DNA of 64,000 bases from Oscillospiraceae bacterium (lineage in GTDB: Bacteria; Bacillota; Clostridia; Oscillospirales; Oscillospiraceae). Numbering within the stretch: position 1 is the first letter of the stretch; each line of letters starts with the position of its first letter. The notes beneath the pieces were generated by a model. The model was not told where the DNA came from, ran no database searches, and saw only the letters and a program-made list of their open reading frames with translations. Below, in pieces: positions 19,722 to 63,493 of the stretch. The position numbers and the translations under genes were made by a program. Location: positions 59,892 through 123,891 of the forward strand of contig SVMA01000003.1 in NCBI GenBank assembly GCA_015067635.1, given 5' to 3'.

Positions 19722-19877
19722 ATGTTTTGTACTGTAATAGATATGCGCGGCGATTACGCACTGATAAAATACAATGATACCGGTATCATATCGGAAGTAG
19801 CCATTGCGTTGCTTCCTGAGGGAATTGATACAGGCGATCAGCTTAAATTTGAGGACTTTGCGTTCACAACTTTATAA
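19722..19877 (+). CDS. Small DUF3006-like protein
   Basis: A 51-residue reading frame too short for the ORF track. It has AGGAG 5 nt before ATG. The product MFCTVIDMRGDYALIKYNDTG..LLPEGIDTGDQLKF follows the DUF3006 pattern of a short beta barrel (RG-D-A-hydrophobic strand, LPxGxxxGDxL). No signal peptide or membrane helix. Its only transcription source appears to be read-through of the nifJ terminator, because the next promoter is downstream. Function unknown. Confidence 0.65.
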   Translation: MFCTVIDMRGDYALIKYNDTGIISEVAIALLPEGIDTGDQLKFEDFAFTTL

Positions 19878-19892
19878 AATGTAAAAATGCAC

Positions 19893-19921
19893 TTGAAATT
19901 CGCAAATCAAAGTGATATAAT
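19893..19921 (+). promoter_or_regulatory. Promoter of the aromatic amino acid operon
   Basis: TTGAAA, 17 bases, TATAAT. The start site should be near 19928, giving a leader of about 194 nt before aroF, long enough for the attenuator described next. Confidence 0.88.
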
Positions 19922-19954
19922 AGGGACAATTCCACCACGGGAGGCCATTTGTAC

Positions 19955-20020
19955 ATGGTTATCACAGGCTTTGCTGCACAGTTTTATTTTAACTATTACT
20001 TTTTTCGCAACAAGGAGTAA
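19955..20020 (+). CDS. Phe/Tyr-rich leader peptide of the aro operon
   Basis: A 21-codon frame with GGGAGG about 9 nt before its ATG, ending in TAA followed directly by in-frame TAG. Residues 10-17 read FYFNYYFF, seven aromatic residues out of eight, with one more Phe at position 6 and no Trp. It lies between the operon promoter and a hairpin that precedes aroF. The arrangement is that of the pheA and trp leader peptides of enteric bacteria: slow decoding when charged tRNA-Phe or tRNA-Tyr is short stalls the ribosome here. The translation and position are seen in the sequence; the regulatory role is inferred. Confidence 0.8.
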   Translation: MVITGFAAQFYFNYYFFRNKE

Positions 20021-20026
20021 TAGCGT

Positions 20027-20109
20027 TTTGTGCTGCAAGGATTTCCCAAGGCTACGGTAGTATTTATGATGTGCCGCACGAATCGCCATTCGTGCGGCAC
20101 TTATTATTA
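20027..20109 (+). promoter_or_regulatory. Transcription attenuator ahead of aroF
   Basis: Terminator form: GTGCCGCACGAAT (20071-20083) pairs perfectly over 13 bp with ATTCGTGCGGCAC (20088-20100), 4-nt loop, then TTATTATTA. Antiterminator form: TTTGTGCTGCA (20027-20037) pairs with TGCCGCACGAA (20072-20082) in 10 of 11 positions, using the same 5' arm. A GCACAG in the leader frame (19976-19981) can pair with TTGTGC inside the antiterminator arm. A ribosome resting at the leader stop (20018-20020) would cover the start of that arm and favour termination; one stalled at the Phe/Tyr codons would leave it free. Mechanism inferred from complementarity. Confidence 0.75.
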
Positions 20110-20121
20110 GGAGATGTTATT

Positions 20122-21123
20122 ATGATTGCTGTTCTGAAACAAGGTACAACAGAAGCGCAAACCCAGCATTTAATTGAGTGGCTGAAAAACCAGCAGCTGG
20201 ATGTTCACATTTCACAAGGTAAAGAAGTGACCATCCTTGGTCTGATCGGTGATACCAGCCGTGTAGACATGGAGCTTCTGGGCTCATTGGATATTGTGGA
20301 AACCGTCAAGCGGGTTTCCGAACCGTTTAAGCAGGCCAACAGAAAATTCCATCCCTTGGATAGCATTGTTCGGGTTGGAAATGCTGAAATTGGCGGCGGT
20401 AATTTTGCTATGATCGCCGGACCCTGCAGTGTGGAGTCTGAAGAGCAGATCATTGAGGTAGCCACAGCAGTTAAAAGTGCCGGTGCCAATGTTCTGCGCG
20501 GCGGTGCTTTTAAGCCTCGCACCTCGCCGTATGCCTTCCAGGGCATGAAGGATGCCGGAATTGAACTGCTGGTAAAGGCAAAATATGCAACAGGTCTGCC
20601 CATTGTAACGGAAATTATGAACATCAGCACTCTGGATTTGTTTGCGGATGTGGATATGATTCAGGTCGGTGCCCGAAATATGCAGAATTTCGATCTGCTC
20701 AAGGAGCTGGGAAAAACAAAGAAACCCATCCTGTTGAAGCGTGGTCTGGCAAACACCCTTCAGGAGCTTCTGATGAGTGCGGAATACATCATGAGCGAGG
20801 GCAATGAAAACATTTTGCTGTGCGAACGCGGTATTCGTACCTTCGAAACCGTTACTAGAAATACATTGGATTTGTCTGCTGTGACTGTTTTGCAGGAACT
20901 GAGTCACCTTCCCGTCATTGTGGACCCCAGTCACGCAACCGGCAAGGCGCGTTTGGTTCCTCCCATGGCCCTTGCAGCCGCTGCCGCCGGCGCAGACGGA
21001 CTGATGATAGAGGTTCATAATAACCCGTCCTGTGCCTTATGTGACGGTGCGCAGTCCCTTACCCCTGTCCAATTTGCTGAGCTTTCGCAAAAGGTACAGC
21101 AAATTCGTGAGGTTATCCAATGA
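20122..21123 (+). CDS. aroF: 3-deoxy-7-phosphoheptulonate synthase (DAHP synthase, type I-beta)
   Basis: First step of the shikimate pathway: phosphoenolpyruvate plus erythrose-4-phosphate. The 333-residue protein starts at MIAVLKQG behind TAGGAG; the track ORF begins 17 codons upstream inside the attenuator hairpin. Residues 1-70 form an ACT/ferredoxin-like regulatory domain as in the Thermotoga-type enzyme, which allows feedback by Tyr or Phe. The barrel carries GPCSVES (100-106), FKPRTSPYAFQG, LLKRG, CERGIRTFE and VDPSHATG. First of eight tightly joined genes, so the attenuator controls the entire pathway as well as feedback at this enzyme. Confidence 0.95.
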   Translation: MIAVLKQGTTEAQTQHLIEWLKNQQLDVHISQGKEVTILGLIGDTSRVDMELLGSLDIVETVKRVSEPFKQANRKFHPLDSIVRVGNAEIGGGNFAMIAGPCSVESEEQIIEVATAVKSAGANVLRGGAFKPRTSPYAFQGMKDAGIELLVKAKYATGLPIVTEIMNISTLDLFADVDMIQVGARNMQNFDLLKELGKTKKPILLKRGLANTLQELLMSAEYIMSEGNENILLCERGIRTFETVTRNTLDLSAVTVLQELSHLPVIVDPSHATGKARLVPPMALAAAAAGADGLMIEVHNNPSCALCDGAQSLTPVQFAELSQKVQQIREVIQ

Positions 21124-21950
21124 ATGTCGGCATTTTAGGATTAGGATTAATTGGCGGCTCTATGGCGCGTGCCTTTTCCAAAACCGGACACAGTGTTTTT
21201 GCCGCAGATCAGGACAGTTCCGTTCTTGGCTTTGCGGAGCTTTCCGGTGCTGTTCACGGAACGCTGGATGAAAGCACTGTCTCCCAATGCGCGCTTATCT
21301 TGCTGGCAGTTTATCCCCGGGATTGTATTGCTTGGCTGGAAAAGCATGCCATTTGTATTCAAAAGGATGCCCTTGTAATGGACCTGTGCGGTATTAAAGA
21401 GGAAATTTGCAATGCTTGCTTTCCGCTTGCCCAAAAATACGGGTTTACCTTCATCGGCGGACACCCCATGGCAGGCTCTCACAACGCCGGTTTTAAGCAC
21501 AGCCGTTCCAATTTATTCCAAGGCGCACCAATGGTTTTGGTGCCGCCGGTGTTTGATGATATGCAGCTGCTGGAACGGGCAAAAAACGCCTTATCTCCAT
21601 GCAATTTCGGCTCATTTTCCGTTTGCACCGCCCAAGAGCATGACCGCATGATTGCCTTTACCTCGCAAATGCCCCACATATTGAGCAACGCCTTCATCAA
21701 ATCACCTACTGCCCTGAAGCACAAAGGCTTTTCTGCCGGCAGTTATAAGGACTTAACCCGTGTCGCATGGCTCAATCCACAAATGTGGGCGGAGCTTTGC
21801 ATGGAAAACCGGGAGAATATGCTTTATGAACTGGACACCTATATCGAAAGCCTGCAGGAATACCGTCAGGCACTTATGAATAAAGACACCGCAACACTGC
21901 ACGCACTGTTGGATGACGGAAAAAAACGCAAGGAGGAAGTTGACGGATGA
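21120..21950 (+). CDS. tyrA: Prephenate dehydrogenase
   Basis: Oxidative decarboxylation of prephenate to 4-hydroxyphenylpyruvate, the tyrosine branch. The 276-residue protein opens with the NAD(P) Rossmann loop GILGLGLIGGSMA and has the conserved GGHPMAGSHNAGF block (near residue 115) with the catalytic His. There is no C-terminal ACT domain, so feedback must act elsewhere. ATGA overlap with aroF and 4-nt overlap with aroB indicate translational coupling. Arogenate as substrate cannot be excluded. Confidence 0.93.
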   Translation: MNVGILGLGLIGGSMARAFSKTGHSVFAADQDSSVLGFAELSGAVHGTLDESTVSQCALILLAVYPRDCIAWLEKHAICIQKDALVMDLCGIKEEICNACFPLAQKYGFTFIGGHPMAGSHNAGFKHSRSNLFQGAPMVLVPPVFDDMQLLERAKNALSPCNFGSFSVCTAQEHDRMIAFTSQMPHILSNAFIKSPTALKHKGFSAGSYKDLTRVAWLNPQMWAELCMENRENMLYELDTYIESLQEYRQALMNKDTATLHALLDDGKKRKEEVDG

Positions 21951-22999
21951 ATATTATACCGGTAAACACTTCAACTGCATACGAAGTAAAAATCGGCACT
22001 TCCCTCTTGTCTTGCCTGGGGCGTGAAGTTGCAGCGGTAACCAAGTTTGGAACAGCCGTCCTGGTCAGCGACACCAATGTCTGGCCTTTGTATGGAAAAA
22101 ACGCCGAGGAAAGCCTGCAAATCGCAGGTTTTCATGTCCATTCCTTTGTTTTCCCTTCAGGAGAAGCCAGCAAAAATGCAGAAACCTATTTGAAGATTCT
22201 TCATTTTCTTGCGGAAAATCACATCAGTCGTTCGGACTGTTTGATTGCTCTGGGTGGCGGTGTTGTAGGAGATTTGACCGGCTTTGCGGCCGCTACATAT
22301 CTCCGGGGTATCCCTTACATCCAGGTTCCCACTTCCCTGCTGGCTATGGTGGATTCCTCTGTTGGCGGCAAAACCGCCATTGATCTGCCCAACGGAAAAA
22401 ATCTGGTCGGTGCATTTTACCAGCCGAAACTGGTTTTATGTGATACAGATACACTGAGCAGCCTGCCGGAGGATATCTTCCGTGATGGCTGTGCCGAGGT
22501 CATTAAGTACGGAATTTTGTACGATGCCCAACTCTTTGCCGCATTGGAAAAGGACGGCTTGGATTTTGAACGGGAGGCCGTCATAGCCCGGTGTGTGGAA
22601 TTAAAGCGGGATGTGGTTTCCCGGGACGAATTCGATACAGGTGCCCGAATGAAATTAAATCTTGGTCATACCATCGGTCACGGTGTGGAAGCCGGCAGTC
22701 ATTTCACCGTTTCTCACGGCAAGGCAGTCGCCATCGGGACTGCCATCATCAGCCGAACAGCGGCAAAACATGATATTTGCTCCCAGGAAACCTGTGATCG
22801 GATCCAACGCATTTTGGTGCAGTTTGGTTTGCCAATCTCCACGGATTGTTCCCCACAGGTGCTTTTCGATACCGCACTCTCTGACAAAAAACGAAGTGGC
22901 GGCACTGTCAATCTCATCATTCCCCGGCAAATCGGAGATTGTATCATTCGCCCCACACCGATTCAGGAAGTAAAAGCATTGATTGAAGAAGGACTTTAA
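21947..22999 (+). CDS. aroB: 3-dehydroquinate synthase
   Basis: Second step of the shikimate pathway, NAD- and metal-dependent cyclisation of DAHP. 350 residues. The GGGVVGDLTGFAAATY motif and PTSLLAMVDSSVGGKTAID are the NAD and substrate signatures. Metal ligands are Glu in DGCAEVIKYG and His in LGHTIGHGVE plus a later His. AAGGAGG sits before the ATG inside tyrA. Confidence 0.96.
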   Translation: MNIIPVNTSTAYEVKIGTSLLSCLGREVAAVTKFGTAVLVSDTNVWPLYGKNAEESLQIAGFHVHSFVFPSGEASKNAETYLKILHFLAENHISRSDCLIALGGGVVGDLTGFAAATYLRGIPYIQVPTSLLAMVDSSVGGKTAIDLPNGKNLVGAFYQPKLVLCDTDTLSSLPEDIFRDGCAEVIKYGILYDAQLFAALEKDGLDFEREAVIARCVELKRDVVSRDEFDTGARMKLNLGHTIGHGVEAGSHFTVSHGKAVAIGTAIISRTAAKHDICSQETCDRIQRILVQFGLPISTDCSPQVLFDTALSDKKRSGGTVNLIIPRQIGDCIIRPTPIQEVKALIEEGL

Positions 23000-23000
23000 T

Positions 23001-24149
23001 ATGGACATTACCATTTATCCCCGCCAGCTGCGGGGTGAAACAGATGTGATTCCCTCAAAATCCCAGGCGCACCGCCTATTGATCTGCGCCGCATTTGCAG
23101 ACAACCCTACCCAGCTGGTCTGCAGAGAAACAAATCAGGACATCGAAGCGACTGTTGGATGCCTGCGTGCCTTGGGCGCACAGATCACGGAAACAGACTC
23201 CGGTTACACCGTAATTCCCACGCAGGAGATTCCCACATGTGCGGAACTGCACTGCAGGGAAAGCGGCTCAACCCTTAGATTTCTGCTGCCCATCGTGGGC
23301 GCATTGGGTGTTGACGGAACATTTATCATGGAAGGTCGCCTTGCTGACCGCCCGCTTTCTCCTTTGTGGGAAGAAATGGAGCGCATGGGATGCACCCTTT
23401 CCCGTCCATCCGAAAACACCTTACGCTGTACCGGAAAACTAAAAAGCGGTGCGTATCAAATCAACGGAAATGTTACCAGCCAGTTTATCACAGGCTTGCT
23501 CTTTGCCCATTCCTTAATGGGTGACTGCACCTTGACCGTTACCGGAAAATTGGAATCCAAACCCTATGTGGAGCTTACAAATGCAGCCCTTGCCCTGTTT
23601 GCGAATCGCCACTCCCCGGGATGTGTTTCCGTAGAAGGCGATTGGAGCAACGGTGCTTTTTGGCTGGTTGCCAACCGTCTGGGAAGCGAGCTGACTGTCC
23701 GCGGACTGTCCCGGGATTCCTTACAGGGAGACCGTGCCGTAGTGGAGATTCTGCAGTTGCTTCAAAGCAGTAAGCCCACCATTTCTGTTGCAGATATTCC
23801 CGATCTGGTGCCGGTTCTGTCTGTTGCTGCCGCCGCAAATCACGGGGCAGTCTTTACGGATATTCAGCGTCTGCGACTAAAGGAATCCGACCGTGTTGCA
23901 TCTGTAATCCATATGCTGCAAAGCTTGGGCGGCAAAGCCTACGCAACGGAGGATACCTTAACCATTCTCCCCTCCTCCTTAACCGGAGGTACTGTGGATG
24001 GCTGTAACGACCACCGCATAGTCATGGCAGCCGCCATTGCCGCCACCATTTGTACTGAGCCTGTGAGAATCCTTGGCGCAGAAGCAGTTCAAAAATCTTA
24101 TCCTGCATTTTGGGCGGAATACCGCCGATTAGGAGGTAATTATGAGTAG
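23001..24149 (+). CDS. aroA: 3-phosphoshikimate 1-carboxyvinyltransferase (EPSP synthase)
   Basis: Sixth step: transfers enolpyruvate from PEP to shikimate-3-phosphate. The 382-residue protein starts at MDITIYPRQL one base after the aroB stop codon, with AAGGA at the aroB end; the track start six codons earlier lies inside aroB. Motifs include SKSQAHRLLI near the N-terminus, GSTLRFLLP, and RLRLKESDRV with the conserved KESDR. Shorter than the usual 430 residues but with both inside-out barrel halves. It overlaps aroC by 8 nt. Confidence 0.95.
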   Translation: MDITIYPRQLRGETDVIPSKSQAHRLLICAAFADNPTQLVCRETNQDIEATVGCLRALGAQITETDSGYTVIPTQEIPTCAELHCRESGSTLRFLLPIVGALGVDGTFIMEGRLADRPLSPLWEEMERMGCTLSRPSENTLRCTGKLKSGAYQINGNVTSQFITGLLFAHSLMGDCTLTVTGKLESKPYVELTNAALALFANRHSPGCVSVEGDWSNGAFWLVANRLGSELTVRGLSRDSLQGDRAVVEILQLLQSSKPTISVADIPDLVPVLSVAAAANHGAVFTDIQRLRLKESDRVASVIHMLQSLGGKAYATEDTLTILPSSLTGGTVDGCNDHRIVMAAAIAATICTEPVRILGAEAVQKSYPAFWAEYRRLGGNYE

Positions 24150-25233
24150 TACCTACGGAGAAAGTTTGAAATTGTCCATCTTTGGGCAATCCCACAGTGC
24201 CGGAATCGGCATGGTTCTGGACGGAATTCCTGCAGGCTTACCGGTGGATATGGTGGAGCTGCAGCAATTTCTCAACCGTCGTGCACCCGGACAAAATGAC
24301 TATTCTACTGCGCGCAGGGAGACCGACACTCCGGAGTTCCTCTCCGGTATTTCCGAAGGCTTCACCTGCGGTGCGCCCATATCCGCCGTTATCCGCAACA
24401 GCAACACCCGTTCCGGTGACTATGACGATCTTCGGGATTGTCCCCGTCCCGGTCATGCAGACTATACTGCACATATTAAGTACGGTGGCTTTCACGATAT
24501 CGCAGGCGGCGGCCATTTTTCCGGCCGTTTGACCGCACCACTGTGCATCGCCGGCGGCATGTGCAAGCAATGGCTCACAGAAATGGGAATTGAAATCGGC
24601 GCGCATATTACCAGAATCGGCTCTGTTGTCACGGAGGGCTTTTCCGAACAAAATCCGCAGCTTGGACGCATCGGAACGATTTTTCCCACTCTCACCGCTG
24701 AAGCCGCGGAAGCCATGCAGGAGGAAATCTCCCGTGCAAAAGCGGACGGTGACAGTGTGGGCGGTGTGATTGAATGCGCCGTTATCGGATTGCCTGCCGG
24801 TCTGGGAGAACCCATGTTTGGCGGAATCGAAAGCAAGCTTGCACAGATCCTCTACGGCATTCCCGCTGTGAAGGGTCTGGAATTTGGTGCCGGATTTGCC
24901 TCTGCCGCCTTGCGTGGCAGTGAAAATAACGATTCCTTTGCCGTTCAGGACGGCAAAATTGTAACAGTAACAAACCGCTGTGGTGCAATTCTTGGTGGTA
25001 TCTCCAACGGCATGCCGCTATTATTCCGCATAGCCATCAAGCCCACACCCTCCATCGCCAGAGAACAGCAGAGCATTTCTCTGTCTGCCATGGAGGAAAA
25101 GGCATTGGTCATTCAAGGCCGTCACGATCCCTGTATCGTCCCCCGGGCGGTGCCTGTGGTGGAGGCTGCTGCCGCTGTTGCAATTTACGATTTGATTCTG
25201 AGCAACACCCAAACCCAGAGGAGGAAACTGTAA
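24142..25233 (+). CDS. aroC: Chorismate synthase
   Basis: Last shikimate step, FMN-dependent elimination giving chorismate. 363 residues. Signatures are GxSHS (FGQSHSAGIG) at the N-terminus, GDYDDLRDCPRPGHADYT, and the RPTPS-like IKPTPSIAREQQS together with RHDPCIVPRAVPV near the C-terminus. TTAGGAGG precedes its ATG at the end of aroA. Its stop overlaps the next ATG by one base (TAATG). Confidence 0.96.
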   Translation: MSSTYGESLKLSIFGQSHSAGIGMVLDGIPAGLPVDMVELQQFLNRRAPGQNDYSTARRETDTPEFLSGISEGFTCGAPISAVIRNSNTRSGDYDDLRDCPRPGHADYTAHIKYGGFHDIAGGGHFSGRLTAPLCIAGGMCKQWLTEMGIEIGAHITRIGSVVTEGFSEQNPQLGRIGTIFPTLTAEAAEAMQEEISRAKADGDSVGGVIECAVIGLPAGLGEPMFGGIESKLAQILYGIPAVKGLEFGAGFASAALRGSENNDSFAVQDGKIVTVTNRCGAILGGISNGMPLLFRIAIKPTPSIAREQQSISLSAMEEKALVIQGRHDPCIVPRAVPVVEAAAAVAIYDLILSNTQTQRRKL

Positions 25234-26375
25234 TGAATTTGGAAGAATTGCGGTCACAGATCGATGAAATTGATGACCGTCTGATTGACCTTTTCTCTCA
25301 GCGGATGGATATTGCGGCAAAAATCGGAGACTACAAGAAGGAACATCGGCTTCCCATACTCGTTCCTGCAAGAGAACGGGAAAAGCTTTCTGATGTGGCC
25401 CAAAAAGCAGGACCGGAAATGGCAAACTATACCCGTGTGCTTTACTCCATGCTGTTTGAACTGAGCCGCAGTTATCAAAGCAAGCGCAACAATGCCCTTT
25501 CTGCCCTACACCATAAGGTTCAGGATGCCATTACCCATACCTCCAAGCTCTTCCCCACCGAAGCAATGGTAGCTTGTCAAGGCGTGGAGGGTGCGTATGC
25601 ACAGATCGCCTGCGAAAAGATGATAAAGAATCCCTCCATCATGTATTTTAAGAATTTTGAAGGTGTATTCAATGCGGTTGATCACGGTCTTTGCCAGTAC
25701 GGCATCCTGCCCATTGAAAATTCCACCGCCGGTTCTGTAAACAAGGTTTACGACCTGATGATCCATCATCAATTCTCAATCGTCCGCACTGCGCGGCTGA
25801 AGATCGACCACAATCTGTTGGCAAACGCCGGTACGAGTCTTTCCTCTATCAAGGAAATATATTCCCACGAACAGGCCATCAACCAGTGCAGTCAATTCCT
25901 TTCCACCCTTTCCGGTGTCAGGATCATCCCCGTGGAAAACACCGCAATGGCCGCGCAGTTGGTCGCAAAATCCGGACGCACGGACATTGCCGCCATCTCC
26001 AGCAGGAGCTGTATGGAGCTTTATGGACTTGTCAATTTATCCCCATCCATTCAGGATAAAGATAACAATCACACCCGTTTTATCTGCATCAGCAAAAATC
26101 TTGAGATTTATCCCGGATCCGATAAAACCAGCATTATGATGATCCTGAATCACCGCCCCGGCTCTCTGTATCGGGTTCTGGCACGGATGTATGCTCTGGG
26201 TATCAACGTGACTAAGCTGGAATCCAGACCGATTCCCGAACGTGATTTTGAGTTTATGTTCTACTTCGATTTGGACACCTCGATCTATTCTGACGAGTTT
26301 GTCCAGTTGATTTGCGAATTGGACGAGCTGTGCGAAGAATTCACCTATTTGGGAAGCTATAATGAGGTGGTCTGA
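25233..26375 (+). CDS. pheA: Bifunctional chorismate mutase / prephenate dehydratase
   Basis: Makes phenylpyruvate from chorismate, the phenylalanine branch. The 380-residue protein has an AroQ-type chorismate mutase helical domain (residues 1-86, with LRSQIDEIDDRLIDLFSQR), a prephenate dehydratase domain (about 108-290, with GVEGAYAQIA, GILPIENSTAGSV and the catalytic TRF in NHTRFICI) and a C-terminal ACT domain (about 300-375). The ACT Phe-binding motif ESRP is present; the other usual motif GALV reads GSLY, so Phe feedback may be altered. One-base overlaps on both sides (TAATG, TGATG). Confidence 0.95.
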   Translation: MNLEELRSQIDEIDDRLIDLFSQRMDIAAKIGDYKKEHRLPILVPAREREKLSDVAQKAGPEMANYTRVLYSMLFELSRSYQSKRNNALSALHHKVQDAITHTSKLFPTEAMVACQGVEGAYAQIACEKMIKNPSIMYFKNFEGVFNAVDHGLCQYGILPIENSTAGSVNKVYDLMIHHQFSIVRTARLKIDHNLLANAGTSLSSIKEIYSHEQAINQCSQFLSTLSGVRIIPVENTAMAAQLVAKSGRTDIAAISSRSCMELYGLVNLSPSIQDKDNNHTRFICISKNLEIYPGSDKTSIMMILNHRPGSLYRVLARMYALGINVTKLESRPIPERDFEFMFYFDLDTSIYSDEFVQLICELDELCEEFTYLGSYNEVV

Positions 26376-27598
26376 TGATTTGCGGACTGTTGGGTGAAAA
26401 GCTGGAACACAGCTACTCTCCGGCTATTCACAAAATTTTGGGCTATTACACCTATTCTCTTTTTGAAAAAAGTCCGGAAGAACTGGAAGATTTCCTAAAA
26501 AACGGAACTTTTACCGGCATAAATGTTACAATTCCCTATAAGAAGGCAGTCATCCCGTACTGCTCTGCTCTGTCCCCCGTAGCGCAGAAACTTGGAGCAG
26601 TGAATATTCTGGTGCGACAGCCGGATGGTTCTCTGATCGGTCACAACTCCGATTATTTCGGTTTTGAAACCATGCTTGACAACAGTGGACTGCAGGTGGG
26701 CAAAAAAAAGGTTTTGGTTCTGGGCTCCGGCGGTGCAGCTAACACAGCCATTGCTGTTTTGGAAGAAAAAGGAGCACAAGTGGTAACCATATCCCGCACC
26801 GGAAGCAATCATTATGGCAACCTTTCTTTCCATTCCGATGCTGCTGTGATTGTCAATGCAACGCCGGTAGGTATGTTTCCAAATGCCGGTGAAGCTCCGC
26901 TGTCGTTATCGCATTTCCCCCGTTTAGAGGGCGTACTGGATGCAATTTATAATCCTGCCCGTACCAAACTGTTATTAGACGCAGAGGCGCGGGGAATCGT
27001 GGCGATGAACGGACTCTGGATGCTGGTGGCTCAGGCCAAGGAGGCCTCTGAGTGGTTCTCAGGCAAAAAGATCCCTAACAAAACCATCGAAGATATCTAC
27101 CATTCTTTGCAACGACAAATGGAGAATATCATTTTGATTGGAATGCCCGGCTGTGGAAAATCTGCAGTGGGTAAGCTTGTGTCGCAGATAACCGGAAAAA
27201 AATTCGTGGATACTGATGCAGTCATTGCAGAAAGAGCCGGCTGTACCATCCCCGAAATCTTCGCCAACCAGGGAGAAGCCGCATTCCGAAAGCTGGAATC
27301 TCAGGTGCTTTCCGATTTTGGCAAAAAATCCGGACTGGTTATCGCAACCGGCGGTGGCTGTGTCACACAGCCTGAAAACTATCCTCTGCTTCATCAAAAC
27401 GGCAGACTGTTCCTGATAGAACGGCGTCTGGACAAATTGGCCACACAGGGCCGTCCCCTTTCAGAAAACGGAAAACTGGAGGAAATGTATCGCATACGCA
27501 AGCCTTTGTACGACGCCTTTGCCGATTATCAAATCGAGAATCAGGGTACTGTTGCTAAGGCAGCAGAGAAAATTCTTCGCATTTGGGAGGAAATTTGA
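26375..27598 (+). CDS. aroE-aroK: Fused shikimate dehydrogenase / shikimate kinase
   Basis: Two pathway steps in one 407-residue chain: NADPH reduction of 3-dehydroshikimate and ATP phosphorylation of shikimate. Residues 1-245 are AroE with GINVTIPYK (Lys56), HNSDYFGF (Asp93) and NADP loop GSGGAANTA. Residues 251-407 are AroK with Walker A GMPGCGKS (256-263), DTDAVI, and ATGGGCV. The reading frame is continuous through a short SLQRQMENI linker, so this is a genuine fusion. Both catalytic halves look intact. Coupled to pheA and aroQ by TGATG junctions. Confidence 0.95.
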   Translation: MICGLLGEKLEHSYSPAIHKILGYYTYSLFEKSPEELEDFLKNGTFTGINVTIPYKKAVIPYCSALSPVAQKLGAVNILVRQPDGSLIGHNSDYFGFETMLDNSGLQVGKKKVLVLGSGGAANTAIAVLEEKGAQVVTISRTGSNHYGNLSFHSDAAVIVNATPVGMFPNAGEAPLSLSHFPRLEGVLDAIYNPARTKLLLDAEARGIVAMNGLWMLVAQAKEASEWFSGKKIPNKTIEDIYHSLQRQMENIILIGMPGCGKSAVGKLVSQITGKKFVDTDAVIAERAGCTIPEIFANQGEAAFRKLESQVLSDFGKKSGLVIATGGGCVTQPENYPLLHQNGRLFLIERRLDKLATQGRPLSENGKLEEMYRIRKPLYDAFADYQIENQGTVAKAAEKILRIWEEI

Positions 27599-28035
27599 TG
27601 AAAATTCTTGTAATCAACGGGCCCAACATCAATATGCTGGGGATTCGGGAGCCGGGTATCTACGGTAAGGATTCCTACGGGGATCTGCTGGCGCTATTGA
27701 CCACAACCGGGCAAGAGCTTGGCCTTCAAATTGACCACTTTCAGTCCAACCATGAAGGCGCCATTGTGGACACTATTCAGGATGCTTATGAGAAATATGA
27801 TGCAATCGTCATCAATCCTGCCGCGTACACCCACACTTCGGTGGCCATTTTGGATGCGCTGAAAGCTGTTTCCATTCCCGCGGTGGAAGTACACATTTCC
27901 GATGTTTCCGCCCGGGAAGCTTTCCGCCAGATTTCCTACGCCGGAATGTATTGCGAAAAAACCATTAAGGGACAAGGGATTGACGGTTATCGCCAGGCCA
28001 TTGTCTACTTAAAAGAAAAATACGGCTGTCACTGA
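27598..28035 (+). CDS. aroQ: Type II 3-dehydroquinate dehydratase
   Basis: Third shikimate step, dehydroquinate to dehydroshikimate, in a dodecameric flavodoxin-like enzyme. 145 residues starting at MKILVINGPNIN behind GGGAGG; the track start is five codons early. It has the active-site Tyr in GIREPGIYG (usually R-Y), NPAAYTHTSVAI and VHISDVSAREAFR with the catalytic His. Last gene of the operon. Its stop codon lies in the terminator and its 3' end overlaps the convergent gtrA by 7 nt. Confidence 0.95.
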   Translation: MKILVINGPNINMLGIREPGIYGKDSYGDLLALLTTTGQELGLQIDHFQSNHEGAIVDTIQDAYEKYDAIVINPAAYTHTSVAILDALKAVSIPAVEVHISDVSAREAFRQISYAGMYCEKTIKGQGIDGYRQAIVYLKEKYGCH

Positions 28036-51149: not shown

Positions 51150-51417
51150 AAGATCGCACACCCACATTTGAACCTGCTGTGTATCCGGTATCAGCGTAGC
51201 CAGCTCAGAAACGGCAACCTCGCGGCACACGGAACAATCCGCTTAATGCTGCTTGGTTCCCCACCTGACATGGTTCACGGGATTCCGTTGCGCAAGACCG
51301 GTTCTTCAACACCGCTTGCCCCGTCCGGACGATACACAAACAAGCCCGGGTGTGGGAATTCATCCCTGCTGTAGCGGATTGCAGGTAACAGGGCACCGCT
51401 ATCTCCCCGATTAGTGC
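51150..51417 (-). ncRNA. ffs: Signal recognition particle RNA, large Gram-positive type
   Basis: The minus strand between acpP and dnaX carries the SRP RNA. The helix 8 core reads CCATGTCAGGTGGGGAACCAAGCAGC, and the 5' Alu-type domain contains GCGGTGCCCTG and CCTGCAATCCGCTA..GCAGGG as in the Bacillus scRNA. Helix ends pair (GTCGCAC at the 5' end with GTGCGAT at 51151-51157). The length of about 268 nt and position upstream of dnaX-ybaB-recR also match the Bacillus arrangement. Ends are estimated to within about 10 nt. Confidence 0.9.
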
Positions 51418-51423
51418 GACCTT

Positions 51424-63286: not shown

Positions 63287-63459
63287 GTGATATTCTGTGC
63301 TTCGCAAAGAGTGATATTATGCCTTACGGCATAGTGATATTTTTGCCGTTGGCAAAAGTGATATTATATTCGCCTCTTAACTGCCCGAAGGGCAATATCA
63401 CTCGGCGTTAGCCGAATATCACTGCGTAGCAATATCACTCGCCGAAGGCGAATATAACT
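63287..63459. repeat. Array of GTGATATT hairpin modules with mirror symmetry
   Basis: GTGATATT occurs at 63287, 63311, 63334 and 63358 (steps 24, 23, 24). Its reverse complement AATATCAC then occurs at 63394, 63415 and 63431, with a degenerate AATATAAC at 63451. Between the boxes are short palindromes such as TGCCTTACGGCA, TTGCCGTTGGCAA and TCGGCGTTAGCCGA. The whole is a large inverted repeat about 63380. No open frame crosses it. A terminator follows directly. Confidence 0.75.
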
Positions 63460-63493
63460 AAAAAACTCCTTGAGAAATCTCAAGGAGTTTTTT
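63460..63493 (-). terminator. Terminator beside the tRNA-like region
   Basis: AAAAACTCCTTGAG/CTCAAGGAGTTTTT, 14-bp stem with an AAAT loop and strong T tracts on both sides. On the minus strand it begins immediately after a CCA-ending tRNA-like 3' sequence. Confidence 0.9.

Follow-up and report, generated by a model that had tools for sequence, protein, structure and literature searches.

In enteric bacteria, the control of amino-acid operons by leader peptides and attenuation is textbook biology; to our knowledge, such control was long held to be nearly absent from Firmicutes, where T-boxes dominate. Attenuation of the aromatic pathway is scarcely documented in the Clostridia branch, and the window analysed here (the whole stretch of 64,000 nucleotides from an Oscillospiraceae bacterium) raises the question of what controls its shikimate operon, which is preceded by a short frame rich in Phe and Tyr codons. 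The best explanation, which we consider highly probable, is ribosome-mediated attenuation of transcription, in which one leader peptide responds to both Phe and Tyr.

The leader peptide frame (MVITGFAAQFYFNYYFFRNKE, 19955–20020; all features of the locus described below are on the plus strand) is read directly from the sequence and consists of 21 sense codons closed by TAA (20018–20020), with a second in-frame stop, TAG, immediately after. The putative Phe/Tyr control codons are leader codons 10–17, encoding the core FYFNYYFF (seven of eight codons aromatic); the frame contains no Trp. Upstream lie a Shine-Dalgarno sequence, GGGAGG (19939–19944, 10 nt before the ATG at 19955), and a predicted promoter (19893–19921), TTGAAA (19893–19898)-17 nt-TATAAT (19916–19921), with 11 of 12 consensus matches and an extended TG; translation might instead begin at the in-frame TTG at 19949. 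The promoter, GGGAGG, 21-codon frame, core and absence of Trp had all been reported in a sequence-only reading of this DNA, correctly to the base. Across 71 genus leaders the GGAGG is at least 90% conserved and the ATG is also conserved, and promoter-like sites 29–33 nt from the leader ATG occur in 29 of 109 genus leaders versus 2 shuffled ones. This is the arrangement of an attenuator, in which a short, putatively translated frame with its own start and Shine-Dalgarno sequence stands between promoter and first gene. The peptide has no match in Pfam or NCBIfam, and the leader DNA none in Rfam. Between the leader promoter and the upstream gene, a large 2-oxoacid:ferredoxin oxidoreductase-like frame (judged by eye), there is also a 51-aa frame (MFCTVIDMRGDYALIKYNDTG..., 19722–19877) with no Pfam match.

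The first operon gene (20122–21123) encodes a DAHP synthase (AroF/AroG-like, type I beta, with a ferredoxin-like domain; PF00793, PF18152, TIGR01361, NF006421), and profile matches identify the remaining genes (21120–28035) as tyrA, aroB, aroA, aroC, pheA (whose product is a chorismate mutase-prephenate dehydratase), an aroE-aroK fusion and aroQ. The eight-gene order is identical in all 18 genus loci read far enough, and is found in Emergencia and several other non-genus loci as well. TrpE (PF04715) was found in none of 40 good genus genomes (1 of 136 overall), against 51 of 161 good genomes at family level; neither TrpE nor TrpF was found in the source genome (86% complete). Because the genus is without TrpE, the amino-acid products of the pathway would be Phe and Tyr only; in the source organism, the chorismate pathway appears to feed just these two among the amino acids, with Trp controlled separately. 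An operon of this kind suits the dual Phe plus Tyr sensor, lacking Trp, that had been proposed for it. Of 109 genus leaders, 2 contain Trp. A relation between Trp codons and TrpE in leaders of other genera was considered and not accepted (Trp in 7 of 24 TrpE-positive versus 8 of 80 TrpE-negative leaders; p = 0.04 before removal of doubtful frames and uncorrected for relatedness). In two Lachnospiraceae operons that have no tyrA (L313, L317), Phe predominates over Tyr in the leader, as though the codons there were chosen to match the operon product.

Upstream regions of DAHP synthase genes were gathered from the same genus (the source DNA and its closest set probably belong to Candidatus Faecousia) and from other genera of the family, the relatives being mostly metagenome-assembled genomes. 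Of 112 genus regions, 110 contain a frame in which 6 or more of 8 codons are Phe/Tyr, as do 71 of 105 regions from other genera; the two genus members without it have divergent DAHP synthases (64 and 70% identity). Among shuffled upstream regions of relatives, 2 of 1090 have 6 Phe/Tyr in 8 and 0 of 1090 have 7, while 1 of 217 antisense control regions reaches 6. In approximately 763 kb of the source genome, no other short frame that follows a Shine-Dalgarno sequence and precedes a long gene has 5 or more aromatic residues in 8. The judgement that such a composition was unlikely by chance is upheld by these controls, and the inspection of relatives' aroF upstream regions, set beforehand as the refuting test, found the frame in most regions of both samples, an outcome in favor of the reading.

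How might such a frame act on transcription? The leader RNA (19928–20124) folds far better than shuffled sequences (z = −4.2; 0 of 200), and can be divided as follows. Region 1 (TTTGCTGCACAG, 19970–19981, encoding FAAQ) is predicted by folding to pair with region 2, and its GCTGCAC core is conserved; because region 1 repeats the core of the terminator 5' arm, it competes with that arm for region 2. In hairpin P2 (19993–20023), the Tyr-Tyr-Phe-Phe codons pair in the predicted fold with AAGGAGTAATAG around the stop codon. Region 2 (GCGTTTTGTGCTGC, 20023–20036), supported by alignment and a permutation test, is the arm common to the 1:2 and antiterminator (2:3) pairings, and region 3 (GCCGCACGAATCGC, 20073–20086) comprises the terminator 5' arm and loop, which pair with region 2 in the antiterminator. 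The intrinsic terminator, 3:4 (20071–20100), begins 50 bases 3' of the leader stop and has 13 pairs, a CGCC loop and the tail TTATTATT, which is weaker than the T-run of the genus consensus; this terminator, which separates the frame from the DAHP synthase gene, was absent from the sequence-only reading, as was the strong folding of the leader. The layout is classic, with region 1 inside the frame, region 2 right after the stop codon, and regions 3 and 4 forming the terminator. When 71 non-redundant leaders from the genus are aligned, a block with hardly any variation (CTATTACTTT...AAAAGTAATAGCGATTTGTGCTGC) is followed by a free spacer and then by the terminator.

P2 bears on one alternative, in which a U-rich/A-rich hairpin (CTATTACTTTTT/AAAAAGTAATAG) yields the aromatic codons as a by-product and the element is a plain constitutive or regulatory terminator with no peptide. 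Four of the aromatic codons do fall within the P2 stem, which is paired in 99.6% of cells across the 71 sequences and nearly invariant within the genus. However, aromatic codons are also conserved upstream of P2: at the three codons −5 to −3 (aligned on the invariant TAT TAC pair, and outside P2), 292 of 324 are Phe or Tyr (90%), and this holds in the leader frame only, the other two reading frames giving mixed residues plus stops. The changes at these positions are mostly TTT/TTC, TAT/TAC or Phe-Tyr swaps, and because they stay within Phe/Tyr, the cell seems to need Phe or Tyr there, whichever of the two. The conserved leader Shine-Dalgarno sequence and ATG also count against a by-product, as do other genera, where P2 differs through compensating changes (CTTTTAC/GTAAAAG in L045 and L170) yet the frame is still aromatic. 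We regard the by-product explanation as extremely unlikely; the frame is enriched in codons for the putative end products and kept as codons, as expected of an attenuator.

Attenuation calls for a terminator and for an antiterminator that excludes it. Each of the 110 frame-bearing genus leaders has a terminator-like hairpin, with scores far above shuffles, and in the 71-leader alignment 94% of 3:4 cells are paired, with both sides changed in 8 of 10 pairs; a predicted intrinsic terminator therefore stands before the first gene, as in known attenuators. The antiterminator pairs region 2 (GCGATTTGTGCTGC) with the terminator 5' arm and loop, GC(C/T)GCACGAATTGC or GC(C/T)GCACAG(G)ATCGC. Native 2:3 combinations have a mean energy of −16.25 kcal/mol versus −14.95 (sd 0.14) for permuted ones, with 0 of 10000 permutations better; for rare region-2 variants only, the values are −14.75 versus −12.38 (sd 0.42), again with 0 of 10000 (relatedness is ignored in both comparisons). 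In the fixed alignment, 6 pairs of 2:3 have both sides changed versus 2.4 in shuffles, and matched changes are seen in individual loci: CAATTT/GAATTG (L065), GAGATTT/GAATTTCT (L077), GTGTTGC/GCTACAC (L092), GAG/CTC (L098), AGCTG/AAGCT (L124) and TAATTT/AGATTA (L125). Both sequence and folding thus point to an antiterminator mutually exclusive with the terminator. The 1:2 pairing is strong in the window fold and shows little or weak covariation in the genus. By every feature testable from sequence, the element would class as a ribosome-mediated attenuator, with 1:2 as its less firm component. The leader-attenuation reading first offered for this frame is supported, in that the required RNA elements are present and terminator and antiterminator covary.

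Two observations concern region 2 and its partner. At core position 5 of the antiterminator (20034 versus 20075 in the window), all 71 genus sequences have a mismatch (U versus C or U), which may hold 2:3 weaker than the terminator 3:4. Use of the element before other genes was considered and rejected: almost every genus genome with the region-2 pattern has it in a single place, at the DAHP synthase gene.

In the mechanism that we propose, RNA polymerase would start near 19928 and a ribosome would follow on the leader frame. With charged tRNA-Phe or tRNA-Tyr in short supply, the ribosome would stall on codons 10–17 and cover region 1 and the 5' arm of P2, leaving region 2 free to pair with region 3; since the terminator cannot form once 2:3 is paired, the whole operon would be transcribed. 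With both charged tRNAs plentiful, the ribosome would reach the tandem stop and cover region 2, or leave so that 1:2 reforms; in either event the terminator would form, and transcription would end before aroF. We infer from the arrangement that ribosome and polymerase are coupled, that termination takes place and that it responds to Phe/Tyr.

Folding with a ribosome mask (equilibrium folds, without kinetics, of transcripts cut before the terminator 3' arm) agrees with this classic scheme, in which a stalled ribosome antiterminates and one that finishes the frame terminates. With the A site on the first aromatic codon, a mean of 0.78 of region 2 is predicted to pair with region 3 in the genus, falling to 0.03 with the A site on the stop codon; the window itself gives 0.79 and <0.001, respectively. 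Along the frame, the predicted 2:3 fraction is high up to the aromatic codons, lower after them and near zero at the stop, so that the model also antiterminates with a ribosome stalled before the aromatic codons. In the absence of a ribosome, the model is undecided for the genus (means of 0.41 in 2:3 and 0.39 in 1:2) and favors 1:2 in the window (0.64 versus 0.001 in 2:3).

A leader of this kind might also work at the level of translation, either through hairpins that gate the aroF ribosome-binding site or through a nascent arrest peptide that itself responds, in the ribosome, to free Phe/Tyr. For other amino acids there are known arrest peptides (TnaC, for example), and the YYFF block is conserved in the genus. 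Yet the conserved Shine-Dalgarno sequence of the DAHP synthase gene (20109–20113) lies 3' of the terminator hairpin and is not sequestered by it, while the non-aromatic residues of the peptide drift or follow RNA pairing (AAQ being region 1, and KK belonging to P2) and the aromatic pattern, unlike arrest motifs, varies freely between genera. The chance that either version of translational control is correct seems to us exceedingly small.

A third alternative to transcription attenuation by a leader peptide is that the operon is under the control of a T-box or another direct RNA sensor (of tRNA, of an amino acid or of a protein such as TRAP), with the frame being incidental. T-boxes are the usual Firmicutes device, the source genome contains 12 T-box matches, one of them before trpB (TIGR00263), and the near-invariance of region 2 could reflect a bound factor. 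Against this, the leader has no Rfam match, to the T-box (RF00230) or to any other family, at E values up to 1, the leaders of 13 related loci have no Rfam match, and a direct sensor would not require the synonymous and Phe-Tyr swap pattern of the leader codons; region 2 can instead be nearly invariant because it pairs with the terminator arm and loop. Direct sensing is accordingly very improbable. The T-box before trpB (L224, 1501–3000) has a specifier that reads UGG in an alignment with the Rfam consensus, and its position in a genome in which TrpE and TrpF were not found suggests that Trp is made from salvaged indole under T-box control. Another T-box match above the cut-off (L222, 1718–3229) lies upstream of an acyl-CoA ligase-like frame (identified by eye), an unusual target. 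Bacterial large SRP RNA and Gut-1 RNA are located on the minus strand of the window, at 51154–51419 and 63390–63460, respectively.

The enteric pheL-pheA and trpL-trp systems have a leader peptide rich in product codons, regions 1–4 and a terminator before the first gene. The clostridial leader has the same layout, its regions 1–4 being predicted from folding and alignment; in contrast, enteric pheL responds to Phe alone and serves pheA, whereas the clostridial leader mixes Phe and Tyr codons and precedes a whole shikimate plus Phe/Tyr operon. Attenuation of aroF/pheA has been listed previously (PMC2659441). The closest published case, likened by description only, is uORFC-13-1 before aroF of Acholeplasma, reported as 24 sequences from Acholeplasma and unassigned environmental sources only (PMC8632094). 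It too is described as a short frame with Phe codons, a promoter and a ribosome-binding site, followed by an intrinsic terminator before a DAHP synthase gene, with attenuation proposed; it differs in being defined by a U run coding for at least one Phe, with no Tyr and no antiterminator worked out in the portion available (PMC8632094). No Rfam 15 model matches the leader. Ordinary leader-peptide attenuators that take the place of T-boxes in Gram-positives include those with His leader peptides that Firmicutes carry ahead of hisS*/hisZ and his operons, which are His-specific and confined to few lineages (the Bacillus cereus group, Peptostreptococcaceae and Erysipelotrichales; PMC2965389, PMC9413887). 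In the Staphylococcus aureus ilv-leu operon, a Leu-rich attenuator peptide with genetic support likewise senses the product of its own pathway, with Ile codons possibly sensing a second amino acid; that system, described in one species, concerns branched-chain amino acids (PMC5794164). No account of a Phe/Tyr leader from Clostridia, or from Oscillospiraceae in particular, emerged from a search of open-licence papers.

The aromatic frame occurs in other families of the order and of the class Clostridia, with carriers including Emergencia timonensis, a Lachnospiraceae isolate and Christensenellaceae; these scans covered the best-scoring loci only. The type of control is already known, and what sets the putative Phe/Tyr attenuator apart is its unusually wide and well-conserved distribution, which is apparently class-wide. 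In a large group of gut Clostridia, abundant and for the most part uncultured, leader attenuation seems to be the usual way in which the central aromatic pathway is controlled. A broader picture, to which we give slightly less than an even chance, combines an old Clostridia-wide sensor of joint Phe and Tyr charging, kept with the eight-gene operon and having an antiterminator that uses the terminator loop, with horizontal transfer of operon and attenuator together to spirochaetes (Treponema metagenome-assembled genomes, MAGs) and Bacteroidales, and separate handling of Trp by a T-box in lineages without Trp synthesis. The locus offers a handle, open to direct test, on how gut Clostridia decide on Phe and Tyr synthesis, and an example of two devices divided by product within one genome (a leader peptide for Phe/Tyr, a T-box for trpB); its relatives provide hundreds of natural variants for the study of leader peptide, antiterminator and terminator co-evolution.

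Two sets of loci stand apart. Three contigs (L315, L322 and L326; two from Treponema MAGs and one from a Bacteroidaceae MAG) have an aromatic leader and terminator before a DAHP synthase gene, with the eight operon genes in the same order in L322 and most of them in L326; these represent either transfer of the operon together with its leader or mis-binned contigs. Six loci (L200, L203, L213, L214, L216 and L218) have another leader type, which contains the Trp-bearing motif (G)WARFxGxGFF, has a G+C-rich hairpin where P2 would otherwise lie and is possibly a three-amino-acid sensor.
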